A stretch of 64,000 bases of DNA. Origin: Opitutales bacterium. Its GTDB lineage: Bacteria; Verrucomicrobiota; Verrucomicrobiia; Opitutales; UBA2995. The stretch covers positions 1 to 64,000 of the forward strand of contig JAJDZZ010000069.1 of assembly GCA_022824405.1 (NCBI GenBank), in the 5' to 3' direction. The notes under the pieces are model-generated. The model was given only the letters and a program-made list of their open reading frames with translations, searched no databases and was not told where the DNA came from. Below are positions 28,144 through 32,813 of the stretch, piece after piece. Position 1 is the stretch's first letter. Each line of letters starts with the position of its first letter. The translations under genes and the position numbers were made by a program.

Positions 28144-29237
28144 GTTATTTGGCAGAATTGGAAGCTTGGTGGGGACCGTTGCGGTTATTCCGTTACATAA
28201 CGTTTCGGGCTCTCCTTGGATCGGCTACAGCCCTGTTCATCGGATTTGCCCTGGCCCCATACATGCTGGAGAGGTTGCGCAGGTTCAAGTTGCACCAGCG
28301 GCTGCGGGACAAGAGCGAGGTCGGGTCCCTGGCCAAACTGCACGCCGGCAAAAAGGACACCCCCACCATGGGTGGACTGATGATTTTCTTCTCGGTGACC
28401 GTTTCCGTACTTATTTGGGCCAAGCCCAATGTTTTTGTGCTGGCCGCCCTGGGGGTATACGCGGCGCTCACCTTGTTGGGATTTGTCGATGACTATTTGA
28501 AGATTTCGAGAAAGGACAGCAAAGGTCTGAACAAGAAGCAGAAACTGATTTGGCAGACTTCCGTAACGGTACTAACGCTGTTCCTCCTCGTTATGCATCC
28601 CGCCAGTGCGGACAAGATAAGAGAACTGTGGGTGCCTTTTTTCAAGGATCCGGTAATAATGGTCATGCCCCTTCCGTTTTTGTTTGTTTTTCTTTTCTTC
28701 GTATTGGTCGGTTCCTCCAATGCCATTAACCTCACCGATGGCATAGACGGGTTGGCGATTGGTTGTACCATAACGGTCGCCCTGGTTTACTGCATCATGG
28801 CCTACGCTGCGGGACACGCGGTCATAGCCGACTATTTGGTGATCAGTTTTGTTCCCGGAGTGGGGGAGTTGAGTATAATTTGCGCGAGTCTGGTGGGAGC
28901 GGGCCTGGCCTTTCTTTGGTACAACTCGCACCCTGCGGAAGTTTTCATGGGGGATACCGGGTCCTTGGCCTTGGGTGGGCTGATCGGTTTGGTGGCGTTC
29001 ATGGTGCACCAGCCTCTGACCCTGGTCATTGTGGGAGGGATTTTTGTCATTGAAGCGCTTTCCGTCCTCATTCAGGTCTTCGCTTACAGGACGCAAAAGA
29101 AACGGGTTTTTGGGATGGCTCCCATCCATCACCACTTCGAATTGAAAGGATGGCCCGAATCGAAAGTCGTCATCCGATTCTGGATACTTTCACTCGCCTT
29201 TGCCCTCGTCGGCCTGGGCACCCTTAAACTGCGATGA
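28137..29237 (+). CDS. mraY: Phospho-MurNAc-pentapeptide transferase
   Basis: 366 residues with about ten membrane segments. Transfers phospho-MurNAc-pentapeptide to undecaprenyl phosphate to make lipid I. Motifs: KKDTPTMGGLMIFF, GFVDDYLKISRKDSKGL (the catalytic Asp pair), SNAINLTDGIDGLAIG, NSHPAEVFMGDTGSLALGG and APIHHHFELKGWPE. The length is typical. It overlaps murF upstream and murD downstream (ATGA at 29234-29237). Confidence 0.97.
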   Translation: MLSYLAELEAWWGPLRLFRYITFRALLGSATALFIGFALAPYMLERLRRFKLHQRLRDKSEVGSLAKLHAGKKDTPTMGGLMIFFSVTVSVLIWAKPNVFVLAALGVYAALTLLGFVDDYLKISRKDSKGLNKKQKLIWQTSVTVLTLFLLVMHPASADKIRELWVPFFKDPVIMVMPLPFLFVFLFFVLVGSSNAINLTDGIDGLAIGCTITVALVYCIMAYAAGHAVIADYLVISFVPGVGELSIICASLVGAGLAFLWYNSHPAEVFMGDTGSLALGGLIGLVAFMVHQPLTLVIVGGIFVIEALSVLIQVFAYRTQKKRVFGMAPIHHHFELKGWPESKVVIRFWILSLAFALVGLGTLKLR

Positions 29238-30532
29238 GGAGACGGCAGCCAGCGGATAAGGTAAAATTCTGGCTTCGCCGTCCCGTTGCCATTTTTGGGG
29301 CGGGAATTAGTGGCCGGGCCGCTGAGAGTCTGATTGACGGTTTGGGAGGAACCTCGGTCGTCTACGATGAATTCAATGCGGATTTCCCTGACTTTTCCGA
29401 GAAGGCTGCCACCCGGCATGAATTGATCGTCGTCAGCCCTGGATTCTGCCGGGAGCACCCTTGGATGAAACGGGGTCGTCTTCACGGCTGCGAAATCATC
29501 GGGGAGTTGGACCTGGCCAGCCTTCTGTGGAAGGGGAAGGTCGTCGCCGTGACCGGCACCAATGGAAAATCGACCCTGGTAGAATTTATCGCCCATTCCC
29601 TTCGCTATGCCGGTTTCGAGGCCCGCGCCGTCGGCAACATCGGGATCCCTTTTGCCCAGTCCCTGACCAAGTGGAACAGGGCCGAGGCTTGGGCGGTAGT
29701 GGAAGTAAGCTCGTTTCAGGCCGAAACCATGCGCTACTTCCGGGCCGATACGGTTCTTTGGTCAAACTTTTCCGAAGATCATCTCGATCGGCACGGGTCC
29801 ATGCGTTCCTATTTTGAAGCGAAGGCGAATTTGCTATCGGTGGGGCGTCCCAGGCTTTCCTTGCTCGGAAAAGATGTGGCCCCTTGTTTCAGGCGGTTCG
29901 GATATGCCCTTCCGCCGGAGGCACAGGTATTGTCAGGTCCGGTTCTGAACGGACCGGAGGGTTCCATTTTCAACCTTCTCCCGCAGCGGGAAAATTTTCA
30001 ATTGGTCGCGGCTCTGTTCCGGTTTTGGGGCTTCGATCCCGGAATATTACTGGATACAGTGACCAGTTTTGAGCAAAGTCCGCATCGGCTCCGGCGCGTT
30101 TCAAGGATAAAGGGAGTTGAATTCTGGAACGACTCCAAAGCGACCAATTTTTCTGCGGCGGAGGCCGCCCTCAAACACTTTGACCGAAAAGTTATCTGGC
30201 TGGGAGGGGGCAAAGCCAAAGGAGGCCGGATCGGATCCTTTGTCCGGCGGATAAGCCCCTGCGTAAAAAAGGCATTCCTCACAGGCGATACGGCTGAGCA
30301 ACTGGGAGGAGCCCTCGATGAAACGGGCGTTTCCTGGGAACGGTTCGATTCGCTGGAAGGTTCGGTCCGGGCCGCCTTCGTTCAGGCTGCTGCGGACGAT
30401 ATTGTGCTACTAAGCCCGGGCTTTGCCAGCCAGAAACCCTTCAAAAGTTTTTCCGAACGCGGGCGCTTTTTTGAACGAGTGTTATCGGATCTCGAGTTTA
30501 ATCTGCAATTAACCCCCCAAACAAATAATTAA
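29234..30532 (+). CDS. murD: UDP-MurNAc-L-Ala:D-Glu ligase
   Basis: 432 residues. Adds D-glutamate to UDP-MurNAc-L-Ala. N-terminal Rossmann-like UDP site (VAIFGAGISGRAAESL), ATP loop VTGTNGKSTLVEF, VEVSSFQAETM, NFSEDHLDRHGSM, and the C-terminal domain with FWNDSKATNFSAAEAAL and WLGGGKAKGG. DIVLLSPGFASQKPFKSFSERG near the end is the usual murD tail motif. It is slightly shorter than the E. coli enzyme but complete. It starts within the mraY stop and is followed one base later by the LysM lipoprotein gene. Confidence 0.95.
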   Translation: MRRRQPADKVKFWLRRPVAIFGAGISGRAAESLIDGLGGTSVVYDEFNADFPDFSEKAATRHELIVVSPGFCREHPWMKRGRLHGCEIIGELDLASLLWKGKVVAVTGTNGKSTLVEFIAHSLRYAGFEARAVGNIGIPFAQSLTKWNRAEAWAVVEVSSFQAETMRYFRADTVLWSNFSEDHLDRHGSMRSYFEAKANLLSVGRPRLSLLGKDVAPCFRRFGYALPPEAQVLSGPVLNGPEGSIFNLLPQRENFQLVAALFRFWGFDPGILLDTVTSFEQSPHRLRRVSRIKGVEFWNDSKATNFSAAEAALKHFDRKVIWLGGGKAKGGRIGSFVRRISPCVKKAFLTGDTAEQLGGALDETGVSWERFDSLEGSVRAAFVQAAADDIVLLSPGFASQKPFKSFSERGRFFERVLSDLEFNLQLTPQTNN

Positions 30533-30533
30533 A

Positions 30534-31628
30534 ATGAAAGCGAAAGTATTCATAATGGTGATGGCCTTTCACATCCTGGTGGTTGCCGGACTATATTTGC
30601 TGTCGGCCTGCTCTACAAAAGAGGGGCCGGTATCGGCGATCGGTCCACCTGCCCCTCAAGTCGCGGAGAGCCCCCGCCCCCGATTACAGGCGCCGACCCG
30701 CCCTGAAAGTCCCCAGGAACTTACCAACCAGGAAGAACCCGCATACGCTGATGTGGCTGATGTGGCTGATGTGGCTGATGAGGCAGAGGTGGCTGAGGTG
30801 GTCCCGGAGCTCGACCCCATTTTCAATGCCGGGACCGAGTTGGAGGATCCTACGTCCGACCGGGGCCAAGTATACGTGGTAGAATCTGGCGATACCCTTT
30901 GGAGTATCTCGACGAAACACGGTGTGGCCCTGGACGATTTGCTGGGGGCCAACGGCCTGACCCGGAATTCCACCCTACAGATTGGTCAAAGGATATCCAT
31001 TCCAGTCGAAGGCCAGTTGGAAATTTTTCCGGAAACTTCGGCTTTGGGAGATCTTGAACCATTGCCTTTGGAGCCCGTTGTGCCCGAACCCTCGGACCTG
31101 CCTCTGGAAATGACCCAGCCCTACACCGTGGTCTCGGGCGACACCCTTTCGGGCATTGCCCGACGGTTCAATACCAGGGTGGAGGATATCATGGCGGCCA
31201 GTGGTTTGACCTCCCATAACCTTCGAGTGAACCAGGTGCTATCAATTCCGGTGAACAGTATTTCCACGGTTATTCCTCCCCTGGCGATAGAACCGGTTCC
31301 GGAGGTTTCTCCTGAGCCTGTTGCCGACCATGGATCGGTCGTCCATGTCGTTCAACCGGGAGAGACTCCTTCCGGTATTGCCAAAAAGTACGGAATTTCC
31401 GTGGCCAAACTGATGGAAGACAATCGAATCGGCGATCCCCGGAGAATTTTTGCCGGGGAAGAATTAAGGATTCGCATGTCGGAGGCTCAGCCCCTGGAAC
31501 CGGTGTCGGCCGTGGAGGACCCCGTCCCGCCTCCTTCATTGGATGCTCCGGTGACTCCCGCCGAATTGGATGAGTCGGTTTTCGATGATCTGCAGGGTAT
31601 TCCGGAGGTGGAAGTGGCCCCACAATAA
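30534..31628 (+). CDS. LysM-repeat lipoprotein between murD and ftsW (NlpD-like position)
   Basis: 364 residues. A lipobox LLSAC (Cys 26) predicts a lipid-anchored envelope protein. Three LysM domains lie at about 112-157, 196-240 and 269-314 (YVVESGDTLWSIS, YTVVSGDTLSGIA, HVVQPGETPSGIA), separated by proline/glutamate-rich linkers. LysM domains bind peptidoglycan GlcNAc. Before the first domain is a short ADV tandem repeat. No LytM/M23 peptidase or amidase domain follows; the C-terminal 50 residues are acidic and Pro-rich. Chlamydiae carry nlpD, also LysM-bearing, in the same place between murD and ftsW, so this is probably the PVC counterpart. It may anchor or recruit division-site hydrolases. 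Confidence 0.85.
   Translation: MKAKVFIMVMAFHILVVAGLYLLSACSTKEGPVSAIGPPAPQVAESPRPRLQAPTRPESPQELTNQEEPAYADVADVADVADEAEVAEVVPELDPIFNAGTELEDPTSDRGQVYVVESGDTLWSISTKHGVALDDLLGANGLTRNSTLQIGQRISIPVEGQLEIFPETSALGDLEPLPLEPVVPEPSDLPLEMTQPYTVVSGDTLSGIARRFNTRVEDIMAASGLTSHNLRVNQVLSIPVNSISTVIPPLAIEPVPEVSPEPVADHGSVVHVVQPGETPSGIAKKYGISVAKLMEDNRIGDPRRIFAGEELRIRMSEAQPLEPVSAVEDPVPPPSLDAPVTPAELDESVFDDLQGIPEVEVAPQ
30746..30801 (+). repeat. In-frame 9-bp tandem repeat in the LysM gene
   Basis: Three near-perfect GCTGATGTG units are followed by diverged GCTGATGAG, GCAGAGGTG and GCTGAGGTG units. They encode ADVADVADVADEAEVAEV, an acidic linker just after the lipid anchor. Repeats of this type expand and contract by slippage while keeping the frame. 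Confidence 0.85.
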
Positions 31629-31652: not shown

Positions 31653-32813
31653 ATGCCAAAATTTTCCATAGGAAGAAATCCCGCAGGGGGATTTTTTTAT
31701 CAGAGGCTGCTGATTTTTATCAGTGTTCTGACCTTGATGATCATCGGCCTGATTTCCATTTCCAGTGCGACTCAGTCCCTGGATGCCGGTTCCTACCGGT
31801 TTTTGGAAAGGCAAATGATATGGTTGGTTTTGGCCATTGGGTTAGGGTTGGTTGCAGCGCTGATCGATTTGGACAAAATCAAACCCCTCATACCGATCGC
31901 AGCCGTCCTGGCTGTAGCTGTGTTGATTTTGGTACTGATTCCCGGTATCGGGAAAATGGTAAACGGAAGCAGACGTTGGATCGTGTTGGGAGGGCTTGGA
32001 TTCCAACCGTCGGAATTTGCCAAGATTCCTTTTATTTTTTTAATGGCCTATTACCTGAATGCTCAACAGCGCAACCTGAAAGACCTGAAGATGGGACTCT
32101 TCCTTCCCTTAATATTTATTGGGTTATTTGCTTTTCCTATTTTATTGGAACCGGATTTTGGAACTTGCGCCCTCTTCGGGGCTGTCGGGATGTTGATGGT
32201 CTTTCTTTCCGGCGCCCGGCTGGTCCACCTCGTTCCCACCGTAGTGGGAGGGATGGCGGCCTTCATAGGTTTGATTCTCCAGGATGAGGTCCGGTCGCGG
32301 CGATTGTTCGCTTTTCTGGATGTCGAAGGAAATCGACAAGAGGGATCCTATCAATTGTACCAGGGGTGGCTCGCCTTTGTAAACGGGGGAGCCACCGGGG
32401 TTGGAGCTGGCAATGGCCGTTACCAGAACGATTATCTCCCCGAGGCGCACACGGATTTCATACTGGCCATCATTGGTGAAGAGTTCGGTTTCATGATAAC
32501 CACTTTGGTAGTAATTCTGTTTGCCACCGTTTTTTGCCTGGTAATTTTTTCCCTCAAACGCGCGCCCAATATGTATCATGGGCAATTGGTTATGGGCACT
32601 TTGCTGATGATCTGCCTCCAGGCCTTGATCAATATGGGGGTCGTGACCGGTTTACTTCCAACCAAGGGATTATCCCTCCCCTTCATCAGCTATGGCGGGT
32701 CGAACCTGATTACGATGTGCGTTCTCACCGGTATACTAATAAACTGCCTGCGCCATTGGGAGAGGCTTCCCATTAGTTCTGAGCAAAGAAAATTTGTTGA
32801 AATTACAGCATAA
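31653..32813 (+). CDS. ftsW: Septal peptidoglycan glycosyltransferase, SEDS family
   Basis: 386 residues with about ten membrane segments. SEDS proteins polymerise lipid II; FtsW works with FtsI at the septum. Motifs: NGSRRWIVLGGLGFQPSEFAKI, LLEPDFGTCALF (with the conserved Asp), a large extracellular loop with GSYQLYQGWLAFVNGG, LPEAHTDFILAIIGEEFGF, and LPTKGLSLPFISYGGSNLI near the end. It starts 24 bases after the LysM gene and its stop overlaps the murG ATG by one base (TAATG). Confidence 0.95.
   Translation: MPKFSIGRNPAGGFFYQRLLIFISVLTLMIIGLISISSATQSLDAGSYRFLERQMIWLVLAIGLGLVAALIDLDKIKPLIPIAAVLAVAVLILVLIPGIGKMVNGSRRWIVLGGLGFQPSEFAKIPFIFLMAYYLNAQQRNLKDLKMGLFLPLIFIGLFAFPILLEPDFGTCALFGAVGMLMVFLSGARLVHLVPTVVGGMAAFIGLILQDEVRSRRLFAFLDVEGNRQEGSYQLYQGWLAFVNGGATGVGAGNGRYQNDYLPEAHTDFILAIIGEEFGFMITTLVVILFATVFCLVIFSLKRAPNMYHGQLVMGTLLMICLQALINMGVVTGLLPTKGLSLPFISYGGSNLITMCVLTGILINCLRHWERLPISSEQRKFVEITA

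Follow-up and report, generated by a model that had tools for sequence, protein, structure and literature searches.

The LysM gene between murD and ftsW

The window analyzed here is a 64,000-nucleotide stretch of contig JAJDZZ010000069.1 from an Opitutales bacterium. It contains an open reading frame at 30534-31628 on the forward strand, which starts with ATG, encodes 364 amino acids and begins 1 nt past the stop codon of murD, with a spacing of 24 nt between its own stop codon and the ATG of ftsW. This gene, referred to below as the slot gene, is therefore located directly between murD and ftsW on the same strand. The upstream neighbour scored above the cut-off of the NCBIfam MurD model, and the downstream neighbour scored 330.9 bits with the NCBIfam FtsW model (cut-off, 337.5), the top score among the models matched. 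The features of the locus are as follows.

29234-30532 (+): murD, the upstream neighbour of the slot gene
30534-31628 (+): the slot gene, whose 364-aa product is anchored in the membrane, carries three LysM domains and is the verrucomicrobial counterpart of chlamydial 'NlpD'
30534-30611 (+): N-terminal anchor (aa 1-26), a hydrophobic helix with the lipobox LLSAC and Cys26, from the sequence, the model and the lipobox test
30570-30572 (+): codon of His13, a polar residue 13 positions ahead of the lipobox Cys
30612-30872 (+): Pro/acidic linker (aa 27-113), of low confidence in the model
30873-31004 (+): LysM 1
31122-31250 (+): LysM 2, the middle domain
31344-31472 (+): LysM 3, with a DPRR stretch as in other last domains of the order
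31476-31625 (+): acidic, Pro-rich C-terminal tail of 50 aa (aa 315-364)
31653-32813 (+): ftsW, the downstream neighbour of the slot gene

A Pfam scan of the window protein detected LysM (E 4.3e-47) over three stretches and no M23/LytM, amidase or NlpC/P60 domain, the remaining matches being to LysM-type models. At a looser threshold, the NMB0315_dom_I model appeared below its cut-off in a position overlapping LysM 2; this model, which was matched by 38 family members, describes a non-catalytic domain found at the N-terminus of an M23 protein. An AlphaFold2 model computed from the single sequence (mean pLDDT 61.7), which cannot reveal contacts, consisted of a helix at residues 2-24 and three LysM-like strand-helix-helix-strand units, and the rest was mostly below 50 pLDDT; no further domain was seen. 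The C-terminal tail contains 12 D/E, no K/R and 10 P, and the tails of the 24 other members of the order that were read are 49-98 aa long. The open reading frame, the Pfam scan and the lipobox test thus confirmed the earlier note, in which a lipoprotein with three LysM domains and an acidic tail, lacking a LytM or amidase domain, was placed in the murD-ftsW gap.

Two further features were seen in this sequence. A near-perfect 9-base repeat (gctgatgtg) at 30747-30800, in the linker coding region, encodes ADVADVADVADEAEVAEV, and its length may differ between strains. By eye, the tail (31476-31625) and those of L142, L145, L147, L156, L160 and L164 have F(D/E) in common and, after it, a terminus of the type (E)(I/V)P(V/I), possibly a short binding motif.

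Distribution and descent of the slot family

The survey took in 86 further Verrucomicrobiota genomes, each inspected at the murD locus, at the ftsW locus or in the stretch preceding murG. The murG search covered 155 genomes including that of the window, of which 153 gave a match; 80 were hand-picked to thin redundant families, and G121, and then G115, G124, G139 and G145, were added after these. Orders, classes and phyla of the relatives are the labels supplied by the survey taxonomy, and G175, whose title names Kiritimatiellae, was counted among the Verrucomicrobiota. The Chlamydiota sample consisted of a first set of 15 named genomes, 13 of them with a murG match and all 13 read, and a second set of 50 genomes, 5 of which overlapped the first set and 20 of which were new and read; the assignment to Chlamydiota was by record title for 13 genomes and by sharing the phylum of G155 for 20.

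In 52 other Verrucomicrobiota, murD and ftsW shared a contig at a distance of at most 2 kb, and 50 of these had a LysM gene in between. The genes murD, LysM gene and ftsW were consecutive in 33/33 of the Chlamydiota genomes read; in chlamydiae the gene at this position is called nlpD. When the two phyla were pooled, the slot was occupied by a LysM gene in 83 of the 85 other syntenic genomes. The earlier note had reasoned that the gene would be a chance insertion if most PVC genomes were found to lack LysM in a survey of murD-ftsW gaps; within Verrucomicrobiota and Chlamydiota this is not the case, and chance insertion is ruled out by the counts for the two phyla.

The remaining Verrucomicrobiota presented other arrangements. 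The LysM gene lay directly before ftsW, with murD absent from the stretch, in nine (L149, L157, L158, L161, L165, L167, L171, L174 and L211), and after murD at a contig end in two (L288 and L289), which were excluded from the LysM-domain comparison because of truncation by the contig ends. Seven had the LysM gene directly after murD with ftsW not next (L295-L298 and L310-L312); an FtsW-family gene was located on the opposite side of murD in L296. No murD match was obtained in two of the 86 genomes (G028 and G121). No LysM gene followed murD in 14 (L290-L294, L299-L301 and L304-L309); together with these, the 52, nine, two and seven genomes above add up to 84. Among the 14, G041 carries a gene for three LysM domains immediately ahead of ftsW. 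In 12, a frame of 353-443 aa located elsewhere matches LysM two or three times (the third match is weak in some) and shows a lipobox by eye. A His lies 13 residues ahead of the Cys in two of these 12 frames (L319 and L326, by eye), which suggests that the LysM gene was relocated instead of lost, at least in these genomes. The lipobox proteins with two or three LysM matches encoded away from murD and ftsW (L319-L330; families f15, f20 and f39) often show V(M/L)xxR soon past the Cys, as judged by eye. Since the murD-ftsW pair of other classes is located apart from murG, the search upstream of murG had suggested a false absence there; a phmmer search with the window protein also missed L169, which was recovered with a LysM profile.

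No LysM match was present within 3 kb of murD in 5 Planctomycetota (L313-L317). Of the 'old PVC arrangement' suggested earlier, the part concerning Verrucomicrobiota and Chlamydiota was borne out, whereas a PVC-wide distribution was not, because the gene is missing after murD in the 14 Verrucomicrobiota and near murD in the 5 Planctomycetota. The membership and age of the family are well supported, as is the conclusion that it is shared by Verrucomicrobiota and Chlamydiota as an old part of the division and cell-wall gene cluster.

Several lookalikes were set aside. The planctomycete G172 has a single-LysM frame (L239:313-1062) in another slot, the gap separating ftsW from murG, and the single-LysM frames in L230 and L239 were not counted as members of the slot family. 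A separate lipoprotein type combines TPR-like repeats with one C-terminal LysM that has a longer loop. In certain other classes of Verrucomicrobiota its gene precedes murG by a few kb, and the window's own genome encodes it on C85 (L006); because of their different architecture, the TPR and single-LysM lipoproteins (L201, L202, L207, L209, L210 and L006) were rejected as members, L202 and L006 being assessed from sequence and not by a Pfam scan.

The 33 chlamydial slot proteins have an N-terminal hydrophobic or transmembrane segment and exactly two LysM domains, and end at most 1 residue past the last LysM. By eye, a linker motif like D(Q/E)(V/I)DQV(I/L) was seen in several Chlamydiota beyond the Chlamydia-like group (e.g., L223, L236, L255 and L259); it is possibly a partner-binding helix. 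The relatives share 20-33% overall identity with the window protein. N140 is the only residue invariant across the alignment, and V116, G119, D120, A126, G151 and P157 are conserved in at least 90% of the members, all of them in LysM 1.

To compare the LysM domains of the two phyla, we scored verrucomicrobial domains with a profile of the first chlamydial LysM. Middle domains gave the highest means, 50.6 bits in the order and 47.2 bits in other classes, followed by first domains (39.5 and 37.6 bits) and last domains (32.3 and 24.9 bits); for three LysM domains that the window's genome encodes in other genes, the value was 23.0 bits. Among three-LysM proteins, this profile scored best on the middle domain in 9/13 of the order and 23/30 of other classes, and on the first domain in the other 11 of 43 (4 and 7, respectively), while among the two-LysM proteins of other orders of the class it scored best on the last domain in 6/8. 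A profile of the last chlamydial LysM was best on the last domain in 6/8 proteins of other orders of the class, 4/24 of the order and 2/30 of other classes. The preference of the first-LysM profile for middle domains is as expected of common descent, for which it provides moderate and not decisive support, LysM domains being short.

These data bear on the alternative that separate LysM genes were inserted independently into the murD-ftsW gap in Chlamydiota and Verrucomicrobiota. LysM domains are common and mobile, the overall identity is low, and the last chlamydial LysM has no clear verrucomicrobial match, all of which would be compatible with independent insertion. Against this, the proteins of both phyla share the slot, the order of anchor, linker and LysM, a polar residue in the anchor and the match to the middle-type LysM, and, of 15 non-PVC genomes searched, the 14 in which murD was matched all lacked a LysM match within 3 kb of it. 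We therefore regard independent insertion as very improbable.

The N-terminal anchor

When a PROSITE-type lipobox pattern was used as the test, the LLSAC of the window protein fitted, as did 28/32 members of other classes, whereas the pattern was found in none of the 24 other members of the order, none of the nine from other orders of the class and none of the 33 chlamydial proteins. A Pro occupies position -2 in 21/25 members of the order; since only the window protein fits the lipobox there, the chemistry of cleavage and anchoring in the order is unsure.

A polar residue within the anchor was more regular than the lipobox. A His is located exactly 13 residues ahead of the lipobox Cys in 24/25 members of the order, including His13 of the window protein (23/25 when two rows are anchored on another Cys), and 11-15 residues ahead of the Cys in 25/25. 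The His is present in 18/32 and absent in 14/32 members of other classes, is present in 9/9 members of other orders of the class, which lack the lipobox, and is replaced by Asn in 33/33 chlamydial segments. In comparison, only 1/35 other lipoprotein-like N-termini from the same DNA, which were picked by a pattern among open frames in the window and the loci and are not verified genes, had His at this place (Fisher p, uncorrected for shared ancestry: order, 5e-16; other classes, 9e-7). The polar anchor residue, His in most Verrucomicrobiota members and Asn in Chlamydiota, is a new observation of this study. In a signal peptide that is merely cleaved away there is no evident reason for such a residue to be buried, so the anchor segment itself may have a function.

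The only two syntenic Verrucomicrobiota without LysM in the slot are genomes of 0.9 Mb from the same genus, in which the open frame between murD and ftsW (L170:5552-5929(+) and L172:1592-1978(-)) retains the anchor with its His and has no detectable LysM. Over the 29 aligned codons of the anchor, the two frames differ at 6, 3 and 11 of the first, second and third positions, respectively, and 21/29 residues are equal; the 24 aligned codons after the anchor differ at 9, 12 and 16 positions with 7/24 residues equal, and the 66 codons before it, which partly overlap murD, differ at 27, 10 and 19 positions with 33/66 residues equal. This codon pattern gives a hint of continuing selection on the anchor, although the counts are low and decay in progress is an alternative.

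A further possible reading, to which we give a fairly low probability, is that the segment is a single-pass helix whose mid-membrane His/Asn contacts FtsW or the FtsW-FtsI pair as an intramembrane partner, the LysM array reporting the presence of glycan. The family would then centre on the helix and not on LysM, and in Verrucomicrobiota and Chlamydiota alone the septal synthase would include a wall-sensing subunit, retained even where FtsZ was lost; in members with a lipobox, the segment would act before cleavage or without it.

The anchor also bears on the idea that the protein is a general tether between the outer membrane and peptidoglycan, Pal/Lpp-like in effect, with its place in the cluster reflecting co-expression only and no division role. 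By the E. coli rule, a lipoprotein whose +2 residue is not Asp goes to the outer membrane, and +2 is not Asp in 57/57 Cys-bearing members of the family; this prediction, together with the lipobox of the window protein and most members of other classes and with LysM binding, would fit such a tether. However, the locus is kept without a lipobox in all Chlamydiota and all other orders of the class examined, a fixed His would be needless in a disposable lipoprotein signal, and the chlamydial protein is septal, Waddlia NlpD being located at the division septum (PMC6956297). We consider a general tether unlikely.

Proposed function and relation to known systems

All 99 aligned family members, the window protein included, contain LysM, and none contains an M23/LytM, amidase, NlpC/P60 or penicillin-binding domain (Pfam, E 0.01); six chlamydial members were additionally scanned at a loose threshold. 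A few members matched HTH and other unrelated models, which were taken for chance. The earlier note had contrasted the window protein with a chlamydial slot gene supposed to encode a peptidase domain. This contrast fails, because the chlamydial slot proteins likewise consist of an anchor and two LysM domains with no catalytic domain, and the idea of a 'degenerate NlpD that lost its LytM domain' was rejected for the reason that LytM is found in none of the slot relatives scanned. The chlamydial slot gene is presumably CT759/Cpn0902. A 2026 paper regards Cpn0902 of C. pneumoniae as misannotated as NlpD and states that a LytM-type NlpD or EnvC is not kept by chlamydiae (PMC13104611), which agrees with the absence of a catalytic domain in the proteins scanned. 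Waddlia NlpD has been reported to bind peptidoglycan (PMC6635528), and in a conflicting account AmiA is equated with NlpD (PMC7154730).

DD-carboxypeptidase activity on lipid II has been reported for the C. pneumoniae protein (PMC4388811), and DD-carboxypeptidase activity of this protein also in PMC9928106. These reports, which are not explained by the domains seen, raise the alternative that the slot protein is an unrecognised DD-carboxypeptidase/endopeptidase with its active site among LysM or linker residues. We found that peptidase, amidase or PBP models were matched by none of the 99 members, that the model outside LysM comprises one helix and low-confidence stretches, and that the most conserved residues are confined to LysM 1, and we judge an enzymatic role improbable. 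With respect to the suggestion that the protein marks or recruits to peptidoglycan instead of cutting it, its anatomy is that of a non-catalytic peptidoglycan binder, and the carboxypeptidase report in PMC4388811 makes the words 'instead of cutting' uncertain.

Another alternative is an NlpD-like amidase activator without LytM, in which LysM binding would bring an Amidase_3 enzyme to the septum and switch it on. At the thresholds used, the window's own genome has one Amidase_3 match (L302), one M23 match without LysM (L303) and LysM matches in three further genes (L004, L005 and L006), and no protein combining LysM and M23 was found in the assembly, which is 96% complete; the activator role would thus be unfilled beside Amidase_3. 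Chlamydiae are likewise without LytM activators (PMC13104611). However, the known activators work via the LytM fold (PMC13104611), which is absent here, and such an activator role appears unlikely.

Taken together, the domain content, the synteny, the seven further Verrucomicrobiota with the LysM gene directly after murD, the polar anchor residue in both phyla, the middle-LysM match, the reports on Waddlia NlpD and the Amidase_3 and M23 content of the genome lead us to see in the slot protein the verrucomicrobial branch of an old family and, with less certainty, to prefer the hypothesis that it is probably an anchored, non-catalytic septal peptidoglycan binder that holds synthase and remodelling enzymes. 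Counting against it are the C. pneumoniae DD-carboxypeptidase reports (PMC4388811, PMC9928106), an activity that a wholly non-catalytic protein would lack, the unsure anchoring chemistry in the order, the low overall identity, the ease with which LysM domains are shuffled, and the proteins in which the first-LysM profile scores best on a first or last domain. We infer co-transcription, septal location, peptidoglycan binding and a scaffold role from how the genes are spaced, from what is known of the chlamydial relative and from the domains. The N-terminal hydrophobic segment would fix the protein to the envelope, probably as a lipid-modified anchor in the window's genome and, for Chlamydiota and the other orders of the class, as a membrane helix without lipid, and the disordered linker would extend the tandem LysM domains to bind peptidoglycan glycan. 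With its gene in line with murD, ftsW and murG, the protein most likely accumulates where septal peptidoglycan is new or denuded and keeps the FtsW-FtsI synthase and remodelling enzymes there, doing no cutting of its own.

This reading connects chlamydial NlpD, a division protein that is poorly understood, with a family found in relatives that live freely and have FtsZ, some of them cultivable and perhaps manipulable, and corrects the notion of a peptidase gene in the murD-ftsW slot. The His/Asn of the anchor is a short element that can be tested; if the anchor does contact FtsW, the family would belong to the septal synthase as a lineage-specific component, both where FtsZ is present and where it is absent.

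Our literature search found no paper treating the verrucomicrobial slot gene among the matches listed. LysM genes near murB/C of Verrucomicrobiales and Methylacidiphilales, in the same cluster as that of the window, are marked in the Figure 7B legend of PMC4803751, and the presence of the gene in part of the phylum was therefore already visible in print; the available portions of that paper only mark these genes, with no analysis of them and no link to chlamydial NlpD. DipM (NF041208) resembles the window protein in being a division protein with LysM, but the window protein, at 73.7 bits, is far under the 740-bit cut-off and has no LytM.

E. coli NlpD has one LysM, as compared with three in the window protein, which lacks the C-terminal LytM/M23 domain that defines the activator. 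The likeness lies in being a lipoprotein with LysM, and the NCBIfam match (PRK10871/NF008123) is weak (22.3 bits against a cut-off of 311). The closer counterpart is chlamydial NlpD (Cpn0902 and Waddlia chondrophila NlpD), with which the window protein, itself without a catalytic domain, shares the murD-ftsW slot, a polar residue in the N-terminal membrane segment, LysM domains in tandem and the absence of LytM. The two differ in that the chlamydial proteins have no lipobox, two LysM domains, an end at the last LysM and Asn in the anchor, whereas the window protein has a lipobox, three LysM domains, a 50-aa acidic tail and His in the anchor.
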